From: Haloarcula vallismortis ATCC 29715 | Lineage (GTDB): Archaea > Halobacteriota > Halobacteria > Halobacteriales > Haloarculaceae | DNA: 64,000 bases | Assembly: GCF_000337775.1 (NCBI RefSeq) | Contig: NZ_AOLQ01000069.1 | Location: 310,001 to 374,000 of the forward strand | Reading direction: 5' to 3' | Part shown: positions 16,873 through 64,000 of the stretch, piece by piece | Numbering within the stretch: position 1 is the stretch's first letter | Layout: every line of letters begins with the position of its first letter | The notes under the pieces: generated by a model | The model's database searches: none | What the model saw: the letters and a program-made list of their open reading frames with translations, nothing else | What the model was told of the DNA's origin: nothing | Position numbers and translations under genes: made by a program

Positions 16873-17640
16873 ATGGCGGGTCGCACTGCGGTCCTGCTTG
16901 TGCTCGCGCTCTTGCTTTTTCCGGGCTGTGGAGCCTTCGGCGGGGCGGAGCGACAGACGGTGACGCCGGTTCCGGTCCCCGAGCAGTCCGAGGACAATCG
17001 GGCCGACCCCGCCGTGACCGAGAACGCTGTCGACGCTACGCGACTCGCGGCGGCCCACCGGCGCGCGACGCGGAACCGCTCGTATGTGCTGGGGATGCGG
17101 CTGTCACTCGAATGGGGGACACAAATCGTCAGTTTCGTCGTCGAAGACAGGTATCGCTACCAGTACCGGACCGAAATCGTCAACAAGAATTACACCAAGC
17201 GGGTGTACAATAACCGGAATCGGCGCTATGTCCGCGACAAGCGCGCACAGGGAGCCTGGAGCGCAACGAGGCGGCCGGCTCCGGTCGGCGACCTCCTCGA
17301 CCCTGACCCCGCTCGACTCATCGAAGCATACCTCGCAACGAACGTCAGCGTCGAGCGGCCGAGAGACGGCTGTGACACCTGTCCGGTGATACTCACGGCC
17401 ACGGAGCCACCGGCGGCGTTCCAACCGGCCGACAACTACAGCGTGCAGGCGACTGTCCGGCCGGACGGACTCGTCCGGTCGCTCACCGTCTCGTACTGGG
17501 ACCGTTCCAGAAAGGCCCCGGTCAGCTACGAAATCAGGTACTCCGCAGTCGGCGACACGACCATCTCCCGGCCGGCGTGGGTCCGACAGCGCTGGCCGAA
17601 CGCGACAGACAGCGACCCCGAACTGTCCGACAGCCACTGA
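16873..17640 (+). CDS. Predicted secreted lipoprotein
   Basis: 255 residues. The N terminus has a hydrophobic stretch (TAVLLVLALLLFPGCGAFGG) ending in a lipobox-like LFPGC, so Cys is predicted to be lipid-modified and the protein anchored outside the membrane. The short n-region carries one Arg and no twin-arginine pair, suggesting Sec export, although many haloarchaeal lipoproteins use Tat. The mature part is beta-rich and carries CDTCPVILTATEPP, whose CxxC might form a disulfide or bind metal. The RNRSYVLGMRLSL stretch recalls outer-surface proteins of the DUF7537 type, but I am not certain. The start is the ATG just before the hydrophobic core. Confidence 0.75.
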   Translation: MAGRTAVLLVLALLLFPGCGAFGGAERQTVTPVPVPEQSEDNRADPAVTENAVDATRLAAAHRRATRNRSYVLGMRLSLEWGTQIVSFVVEDRYRYQYRTEIVNKNYTKRVYNNRNRRYVRDKRAQGAWSATRRPAPVGDLLDPDPARLIEAYLATNVSVERPRDGCDTCPVILTATEPPAAFQPADNYSVQATVRPDGLVRSLTVSYWDRSRKAPVSYEIRYSAVGDTTISRPAWVRQRWPNATDSDPELSDSH

Positions 17641-26650: not shown

Positions 26651-27064
26651 ATGGACGACCTCGACAGGGAGATACTTTCGATACTCCGCCGGGACGCCCG
26701 AACCCCGTATACGGAAATCGCGGACCGGGTCGGCACGTCGGAAGGGACCGTGCGAAACCGCGTCGAACGACTGGTCGACGACGGCGTTATCGAACGTTTC
26801 ACCGTCGCGACGCGGACCGGCAACGTGAAAGCGATGATCGAGGTTAGCGTCGACGTAAACGTCGACACGGCCGAGGTCTCGGACCGTATCGCCGATTGGC
26901 AGGAGGTGGATTTTGTCTGGCAGGTCTCTGGCGAGGAGGATATCGTCGTCGTCGTTGACGCTGCTGATACCGACGCGGTCAACGGACTCATCACGCAGGC
27001 GCGCGAGCTGGAGGAGGTCGTCGGTACGAAAACGAGGCTCATTCTGAACGAGCGAGTCGGGTAA
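26651..27064 (+). CDS. Lrp/AsnC family transcriptional regulator
   Basis: 137 residues. The N-terminal helix-turn-helix (LDREILSILRRDARTPYTEI, then SEGTVRNRVERLVDDGVI) is followed by a RAM-type alpha/beta domain that binds amino acids and forms octamers (VKAMIEVSVDVNVDTAEVSD, DFVWQVSGEEDIVVVVDA). These proteins sense amino acids and control their metabolism. Its position head-to-head with carA suggests control of carbamoyl phosphate supply. A homologue beside carA is known in Halobacterium (Trh3), which supports the pairing but not the target. A perfect palindrome lies at the promoter. The gene ends just before a structured non-coding stretch. Confidence 0.93.
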   Translation: MDDLDREILSILRRDARTPYTEIADRVGTSEGTVRNRVERLVDDGVIERFTVATRTGNVKAMIEVSVDVNVDTAEVSDRIADWQEVDFVWQVSGEEDIVVVVDAADTDAVNGLITQARELEEVVGTKTRLILNERVG

Positions 27065-27280
27065 CACACACCCCTGCGGTCCGAGCCAACTCGGTGAAGC
27101 GGAATTCGTCGAGTGAAGTCCTTCTAAACCGGCACGTCGGGTGCACAGCGAAGTCGTGAAGCGACGGTGCAGGTCGAGCAGTGGGGTCCCGGGCGGGAGT
27201 GCCGTTTGGCGCACCAAAGCGACTGAGAGCCGCGGGACGCGAACAATATAGAGGAGCCGTGGTGGCTACGAGTCCGGACG
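27065..27280 (+). ncRNA. Candidate structured RNA region downstream of lrp
   Basis: No coding frame fits here. Nested pairings are visible: CACCC (27069-27073) with GGGTG (27139-27143), CGGT (27077-27080) with ACCG (27128-27131), and ACTCG (27089-27093) with CGAGT (27110-27114). One base later comes ACA (27145-27147). A second unit pairs GTCCCGGGC (27186-27194) with GCC-G-CGGGAC (27229-27238) around TTTGG-CGCA-CCAAA (27205-27218), with ACA at 27243. Two hairpins each followed by ACA recall H/ACA guide RNAs. I could not identify a target or a kink-turn with certainty, so this is a hypothesis. Confidence 0.3.
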
Positions 27281-27321
27281 TGACACCGTACTATCATACC
27301 GGCTGGACTACGAGAAACAGT

Positions 27322-28194
27322 ATGCAGTTCCCGGGCCTAGATATCGATATCGTCTCGACGTACGGCCAACTGGCGACCGACGGGGCACAGTTCCTCGCCG
27401 TCGCGGCGCTCCTCTACGCTGTCGGCCGGTTGATCGCCGTGCCGGTGGCCCGATGGCTGCTCTCACGGACGGAGACTAACAAGACAGTTGCCAGTGCGCT
27501 GACCAGCGCCGTCCACCTGCTAGCGGTCGTCTTTGCGGTGGTAATCGGGGCTAGCGTTGCGGGCTTTCGGGGCGCACTTGCGGGATCGACCCTCCTGGCG
27601 GCAGGTATTACACTGGCGGTGGGGCTGGCGGCACAGGACGTGCTCGGGAACTTCGTCGCCGGCGCGTTCATCGTGACTGACCCGGACCTGAACGTCGGTG
27701 ACGTCATCGCCTGGAACGGGATGCAGGGTACGGTGGTCGATATCGACCTGCGCGTGACCCGGATCCGGACGCCGGACAACGAGCGCATCATTGTCCCGAA
27801 CACGGAACTGGCGACGAGTGCGGTGACGAACTAGACATCGACCGGTCCCATCGGGATTTCTTACCAGTTCGGTATCGGCTACGAGGACGACATCGAAACG
27901 GTCCGGGCCATCATCGAAAACGCCGCTCGCGACCTCGACCACGTCTCGGAAAAGCCAGCGCCGACGGCCAGAGTCTCCGACCTCGCGTCGACGGCAATAA
28001 TCCTGACGGGCCGGATCTGGATTCCCAACGAACGGCGGAACCGACTCGCGTCAGTCAGGGCCGCGTTCATCCAGCAGGTGACAGAGGACTGCCACGCGGA
28101 GGGTATCGACCTCAGCGAAACGAACCAGTACGAACTCTCCGGCGATATCGGTGTCCACGGCAGCGCCGGGCCGACGCGCGAACGAACGGAGTAG
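27322..28194 (+). pseudogene. MscS-type mechanosensitive channel with in-frame TAG
   Basis: The sequence encodes an MscS-like channel that would open under hypo-osmotic membrane tension. Codons 1-170 cover the membrane helices (QFLAVAALLYAVGRLIAVP, VVFAVVIGASVAGFRGALAG) and the beta domain with LAAQDVLGNFVAGAFIV and NERIIVPNTELATSAVTN. A TAG at 27832-27834 then stops translation. The next 119 codons in the same frame encode the missing C-terminal alpha/beta domain (GPIGISYQFGIGYEDDIETV and PNERRNRLASVRAAFIQQV), ending in TAG at 28192. There is no frameshift or other lesion. It is therefore a nonsense allele, a sequencing error or a readthrough gene. The ATG at 27322 has TACTATCATA 28 bases upstream. 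Confidence 0.75.
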
Positions 28195-45404: not shown

Positions 45405-45522
45405 GCGTAGGGATACTTCGGACATTCCTTGCCGTTGTTTCTGTCCGGAGCGGATGTCATGTCTGAGATCGGGATACGTACCCACATACGTCTGTGCAGA
45501 CTCCCGCCCGAACCGTGTACAT

Positions 45523-46890: not shown

Positions 46891-47499
46891 ATGAGCAAGT
46901 CGTCGGCGGACACAGGCGGTCGACACCGTCTTGGCAGCCTCGCGGCCGTAGTCGGGTGGATAGGGGCAGGGGCGGTCGTGCTCGCCACCGTCGCGCTGGT
47001 GGTCCAGTCAGTGTTCTCACTCGGGCTCTCGGAACAGGTCACTGTCGGACTCGGTCTGGCGCTTGGCGGCGGACTGGGCGGCGTTTCCTACCTTCTGGTG
47101 ACTGACTCGCCCGGCGAGATGACCGACGAGACGATGACAGTGTCTGCAGATGCCGAGCAAACACCGGAGCCACAGCCGGTCGACCTTTTCGACGGGCATC
47201 CGGACCCGGTGTTGTACTTCGCCGACGAGGGTCATGGTCCGGTCGTGCGTGCGGCCAACGAGGCCTTCGGGACAGCGTTCGACGTGCCGTCCGACCGGCT
47301 CACCGGGACAGCCCTTTCAGAGGCACTGCTCGTGGCTGGTATCGACGAAGTGGACGCCGAGACGGTCAGCACAGCTGACCTCGATGTCGTCGCCCTCTCG
47401 ACGGCACCTGACGAACCGACGCAGTTTCGACTGCGGACGGCTGGCGCTCCCTCGACCGGCTACCTCCTGCTTACACCGCTGGGGACAGCGGTCGACTGA
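46891..47499 (+). CDS. Membrane protein with C-terminal PAS domain
   Basis: 202 residues. Two membrane helices (AAVVGWIGAGAVVLATVALVV and VGLGLALGGGLGGVSYLLV) are followed by a linker and a PAS fold (FDGHPDPVLYFADEGHGPVV, then RAANEAFGTAFDVPSDRLTG). No kinase, GGDEF or other output domain is attached, so it would signal through a partner protein. The start is the ATG at 46891; it is divergent from the HalX regulator, and the two are the most plausible pair here. The PAS could bind a small ligand or cofactor, but no signature residue is visible. I have low certainty about its ligand, moderate about the fold. Confidence 0.72.
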   Translation: MSKSSADTGGRHRLGSLAAVVGWIGAGAVVLATVALVVQSVFSLGLSEQVTVGLGLALGGGLGGVSYLLVTDSPGEMTDETMTVSADAEQTPEPQPVDLFDGHPDPVLYFADEGHGPVVRAANEAFGTAFDVPSDRLTGTALSEALLVAGIDEVDAETVSTADLDVVALSTAPDEPTQFRLRTAGAPSTGYLLLTPLGTAVD

Positions 47500-63594: not shown

Positions 63595-64000
63595 TTAGAT
63601 CTCCAGCATTCGGTCCATCGCGACCTGTGCCAGTTCCTTCTCCTCGGGCGCGACTTCGATGACGTTGCGCTCACGGCCCGCGACCAGTTCCTCTAGCACC
63701 CACGCGAGGTAGTTCGGGTCGATCTGGCGCATGGCGTTGCAGTCCATGCAGGCGTCGCCACACAGCGGCACGACGTTCACGTCGGGGTGCCACCGCTGGA
63801 GGTGGTGGGTGAGGTGTATCTCGGTGCCGATGGCCCACGTCTCACCGGGGTCGGCCTCGGCAACGGACTCGCAGATAGTCGACGTCGAGCCGGACACGTC
63901 TGCGGCTTCGACGACCTCGCGGCGACACTCGGGGTGCACGATGACGTTCGCGTCGGGGTAGTCCTCGCGAATGGACTTGATGTGGTGTTCGCGGAAGCGT
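63595..64000 (-). CDS. nadA: Quinolinate synthase, C-terminal part
   Basis: Only the C-terminal 134 codons are in the window; the gene starts beyond the right edge. It condenses iminoaspartate with dihydroxyacetone phosphate to give quinolinate, using a [4Fe-4S] cluster. Visible are VHPECRREVVEAADVSGSTS and VVPLCGDACMDCNAMRQIDP with cluster-binding cysteines. The stop is 2 bases before the nadB ATG, completing the nadA-nadB-nadC order of an operon transcribed leftward. Confidence 0.95.
   Translation of the reverse strand, partial: RFREHHIKSIREDYPDANVIVHPECRREVVEAADVSGSTSTICESVAEADPGETWAIGTEIHLTHHLQRWHPDVNVVPLCGDACMDCNAMRQIDPNYLAWVLEELVAGRERNVIEVAPEEKELAQVAMDRMLEI

Follow-up and report, generated by a model that had tools for sequence, protein, structure and literature searches.

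MscS-type channel genes, for example that of Escherichia coli, carry two Pfam domains, the beta domain (PF00924) and the C-terminal alpha/beta domain (PF21082). A miniature MscS has been described in Trypanosoma cruzi; this protein, TcMscS, ends past the beta domain and is without the C-terminal alpha/beta domain (PMC12334622). As for stop codons that are read as amino acids, the accessible part of a review on recoding in archaea lists selenocysteine and pyrrolysine (PMC8211752).

Here we describe a Haloarcula mscS paralog with a TAG between its beta and C-terminal domains. It lies in the window, by which we mean the whole 64,000-nucleotide stretch of DNA that was analysed. We consider it likely that this TAG is a recent loss-of-function nonsense mutation in a dispensable MscS paralog, and this is the reading that best explains the evidence.

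Results

An in-frame TAG between the two domains

The earlier note on this DNA had reported an in-frame TAG that splits an MscS gene into 170 and 119 codons. We reread the frame from the ATG at 27322 and arrived at the same structure. In the paralog at 27322-28194 (+ strand), codon 171 is a TAG at 27832-27834; 170 codons precede it, and 119 codons follow in the same frame before a second TAG at 28192-28194.

27322..27831, + strand: 5' part of the mscS paralog, 170 codons that encode the membrane helices and the beta domain; the expected product if the TAG stops translation
27832..27834, + strand: premature in-frame TAG; CAG (Gln) in 11/11 close orthologs, and 26/26 aligned orthologs have a sense codon here
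27835..28194, + strand: post-stop frame, 119 codons with the C-terminal alpha/beta domain and the original TAG stop
27331..27336, + strand: codon 4/5 junction, where one codon is absent compared with all 11 close relatives (alignment)

When the frame was read through the TAG, Pfam placed MS_channel_2nd (the beta domain) at residues 106-172 and MS_channel_3rd (the C-terminal domain) at residues 180-263. The scores were 73.7 bits for PF00924 (cut-off 20.2) and 30.2 bits for PF21082 (cut-off 21), which identifies the MscS family as the ancestry of the frame. Scanned alone, the 5' part matched PF00924 (E 3e-20) and the post-stop part matched PF21082 (E 8.7e-8). A phmmer search with the read-through frame matched solved MscS chains in the PDB across residues 25-259. 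The PDB matches also included 171-residue chains (9sdg and others), and a literature search on the code 9SDG found nothing related. Searches of plasmids and of viral contigs found no second copy of the TAG site. Reinitiation after the TAG was considered and rejected, as the remaining frame has no ATG or TTG and holds only a GTG at 28078, with 38 codons left, and a CTG at 28003.

The gene had also been called otherwise intact. This calls for a minor correction: one codon is missing after codon 4, and there are changes upstream of the start that are found only in this copy. The upstream region contains two features.

27282..27297, + strand: segment from -40 to -25 relative to the mscS ATG; it hardly varies among 11 relatives, and its position resembles that of a promoter
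27062..27321, + strand: stop of an Lrp/AsnC-type regulator gene and the spacer ahead of mscS; the spacer length is variable among relatives

Four of the 16 bases in the -40 to -25 segment, at -34, -32, -31 and -29, are unique to this copy. The signal is weak: for this segment, which was chosen post hoc, the probability of four such changes is P = 0.002 at the overall coding rate of the branch leading to this genome and P = 0.08 at the synonymous rate. The position of the segment would suit the promoter of a leaderless transcript. A start-site study of Haloferax volcanii, in the part of it that was accessible, found 72% of protein-coding transcripts to be leaderless; for the haloarchaeal TATA box and BRE it cites the proposed motifs TTWT and CGAAA, respectively (PMC4983044). 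The spacer between the regulator gene and mscS is longer than those of the nearest relatives. A new insertion at this place was rejected: the spacer occurs only once in the genome, its first part is similar to the spacer found in a different relative, and its fold is unremarkable (z -0.09).

Relatives carry a sense codon at the site

We searched for orthologs at the DNA level in this genome and in 31 others of the genus (n=32), and some match was found in 31/32. Besides the present copy, 26 loci (L009-L034) had sufficient length for alignment. In every one of them the site holds a sense codon: CAG in 12, CGG in six, CAC in four, GAG in three and CGC in one. The CAG codons belong to all 11 close orthologs (84-92% DNA identity) and to one distant ortholog. 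Named matches in the genome collection came chiefly from Haloarcula and its near kin. As Gln, Arg, His and Glu are all accepted here, the residue is not strict. A single C-to-T transition on the branch leading to this genome is the most parsimonious history. As would be expected for a nonsense pseudogene, the close relatives have a sense codon one base change away from the stop. All 11 are full length and retain the C-terminal domain.

The changes on this branch were assigned by parsimony, using the present copy, its two nearest relatives and nine outgroup sequences. The part before the stop has 11 synonymous and two nonsynonymous changes, and the part after it has 12 and four, respectively (23/6 for the whole gene). 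Under neutrality about 72% of the post-stop changes should be nonsynonymous, whereas 4/16 were (P = 1.3e-4). The synonymous to nonsynonymous ratio did not differ between the parts before and after the stop (Fisher P = 0.66). Thus, purifying selection acted on the post-stop part along most of this branch, which fits a young stop; if the lesion is very young, no post-stop relaxation is expected. A loss of purifying selection downstream in relatives had been named as a sign against the account given in the earlier note. We looked for such a loss and saw none: among the 11 close orthologs, changes in the C-terminal domain are mainly synonymous in most comparisons. The CAG codons in the close orthologs, together with the lack of a nonsynonymous excess after the stop on this branch, support the recent nonsense mutation that the note had listed among its options. 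The missing decay is by itself compatible also with a sequencing error or with readthrough and does not separate the three.

The base is probably real

A sequencing, assembly or culture artefact, in a strain that really has CAG, would account for the absence of decay past the stop, and the assembly is a draft in 69 contigs. We therefore consider the surroundings of the gene. The window was scanned for lesions with genes that had been picked from 80-kb stretches of the close relatives G031 and G020; 51/71 and 50/67 of these genes, respectively, were matched to the window. The picked genes replaced a set of all stop-to-stop open reading frames, which was swamped by spurious frames. Six of the 51 matched G031 genes and six of the 50 matched G020 genes were flagged, with mscS among both. 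The remaining flags were judged by eye. Frameshift flags near 45469-45488 and 48715 and a stop flag at 63673 lie upstream of likely true starts, and the flags at 47319 and 48316 fall in frames that run opposite likelier genes. The flag at 17638 is a stop just a few codons ahead of the C-terminus and was not taken as a lesion; the gene that begins at 16873 ends here a few codons sooner than in two relatives, a minor difference in length.

With about 50 genes compared against each relative, the mscS TAG was thus the only stop within a likely gene body, and no frameshift was found within a likely gene. That the sole such stop is in mscS speaks against a poor assembly. Additionally, the 23 synonymous and six nonsynonymous changes in the gene have the pattern of real divergence, unlike random base errors. 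Sequencing error, the second option of the earlier note, is made less likely by the lack of any other stop inside a likely gene body among the genes compared and by changes that are mostly synonymous. We regard an artefact as unlikely, and the base is probably real.

Readthrough of the TAG is unlikely

If the TAG were read as an amino acid, through readthrough or suppression, a full-length channel would be made. The intact and conserved frame after the TAG would fit this, as would a large tRNA set that includes a 26-gene array on another contig. The machinery for decoding TAG was not found. In a profile search of this genome for pylS, the best TIGR02367 (PylS) match scored 28.9 bits against a cut-off of 178.15, whereas one of 14 control genomes scored above it. 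Two matches to the general family PF01409 were found, neither with an internal stop. None of 67 tRNA matches has a CTA anticodon, although a CUA-anticodon suppressor tRNA may have been missed in a draft genome; a different anticodon was assigned to 66 of them, and the predicted loop of the remaining one contains no CTA. Anticodons were read by ARAGORN without introns, and with introns for two matches.

TAG is also an ordinary stop in this DNA, as the earlier note had claimed: it ends 19/56 model genes of the window, which were chosen on the basis of length and GC3. The scan showed an internal stop in none of the other likely gene bodies. The lack of a PylS match above the cut-off and of a CUA anticodon among the tRNA matches, together with the common use of TAG as a stop, makes readthrough unlikely; indeed we regard it as highly improbable. 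The note's readthrough option thus finds no support, and the pylS gene or suppressor tRNA for which it suggested a search did not appear. Translation would accordingly be expected to end at the TAG, and the gene is very probably cut short.

Two observations on the tRNA genes are recorded here. The array mentioned above, at C4:254166-257734 (L083:9166-12734), comprises 26 tRNA genes, all on the same strand and packed into 3.6 kb (ARAGORN). It has no CTA anticodon, a Lys tRNA with a 17-base intron sits in its midst, and it looks like a virus- or element-borne set. Separately, a tRNA-like match of 39.5 bits at C9:119694-119795 (L100), unrecognised by ARAGORN, has an extended anticodon-arm hairpin of 9-10 bp and a 14-base loop without CTA; it is either a pseudogene or an odd tRNA.

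Other MscS-type genes remain

The genome contains seven matches to the MscS beta domain, and the six others have no internal stop. Among the genus-wide MscS matches listed, a stop within the domain match is seen in the present gene alone. The ortholog in G017, another species (L034, G017:C1, about 2409909-2410453), is broken by a frame change shortly past the same domain boundary, and it has a 116-codon frame. G006 and G015, which are listed as 99-100% complete, gave only weak matches, and the gene is apparently absent from them. These cases suggest that loss of this paralog is tolerable and that it has happened elsewhere.

Discussion

The TAG cuts the gene between two domains, and a channel shortened at this boundary might retain its function; this counts against a loss of function. 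We have considered whether the short product was selected, such that a 170-residue MscS without the C-terminal cage would still gate. Two other proteins of this genus speak for it.

C9:114993-115784 (L115): 264-aa MscS-like protein, in 31/32 genus genomes, directly downstream of the diadenylate cyclase gene (dacZ; DAC match)
C38:25649-26179 (L127): 177-aa MscS-like protein, in 27/32 genus genomes

A Pfam scan of this genome's own copies found PF00924 and no PF21082 in either. Both proteins end right past the beta domain, as the 170-residue product would; in an alignment, the TAG lies no more than a few residues from either end. Based on this resemblance, some residual activity of the 170-residue product is possible. 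A phenotype is known for a gene in a comparable setting: deletion of mscS2 in the dacZ operon of Haloferax volcanii is described as having a hypo-salt phenotype in the accessible part of the report (PMC6741144). TcMscS can be cited as a parallel, as it is a natural short MscS. A literature search on MscS truncation found no paper.

The distribution of the short form points the other way. It occurs in one lineage only, while the 11 other close orthologs retain the C-terminal domain, so that a short form conserved across species, as in a natural cage-less MscS, is not what we found at this gene. Additionally, a single transition would make a stop out of any of 16 codons in the nearest ortholog, one of which is at the boundary; the position of the TAG would thus be a 1-in-16 coincidence. 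Selection on the first part alone would not yet show in so young a lesion. On this evidence, a selected short channel seems quite improbable to us. The related proposal, that the TAG marks a recent switch in architecture from a full MscS to a cage-less, 170-residue working valve of different selectivity, resembling the two conserved families that Haloarcula already has, we hold to be very doubtful.

We therefore return to a recent nonsense mutation. We propose that one C-to-T change converted Gln codon 171 from CAG to TAG in this Haloarcula lineage, after its split from the nearest sequenced species, and that the mutation is recent relative to that split. Translation most likely stops at the TAG, which would leave a protein of 170 residues that has the membrane helices and beta domain and lacks the C-terminal cage domain. 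This product presumably has no selected function. The lesion appears to be tolerated and the gene dispensable, probably since other MscS-type proteins remain, and the locus would then be at the start of its decay. In sum, the truncation looks like ordinary gene loss in progress.

Taken alone, the TAG matters little, as it is a further example of a young nonsense mutation in a redundant gene. Its annotation should say nonsense mutation and not recoding. A more useful by-product of this work is that Haloarcula genomes conserve MscS-like proteins that end past the beta domain, one of them encoded beside the gene for c-di-AMP synthase.

How does this locus compare with known systems? Like MscS-type channel genes such as that of E. 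coli, the read-through frame has both domains in their usual order; unlike them, it is split by a TAG between the beta and C-terminal domains. TcMscS has no TM1 and its short form is normal for its gene, whereas the short form of mscS is due to a lesion in one lineage. The same contrast applies within the genus, as the 264-aa and 177-aa proteins are conserved in 31 and 27 of the 32 genomes and the short form is thus normal for them. The closest likeness is to recent prokaryotic nonsense pseudogenes, with which this mscS paralog shares a stop one transition from a conserved sense codon, redundancy and the lack of decay so far. Nothing notable sets it apart from these pseudogenes, and the cut happens to coincide with a domain boundary.
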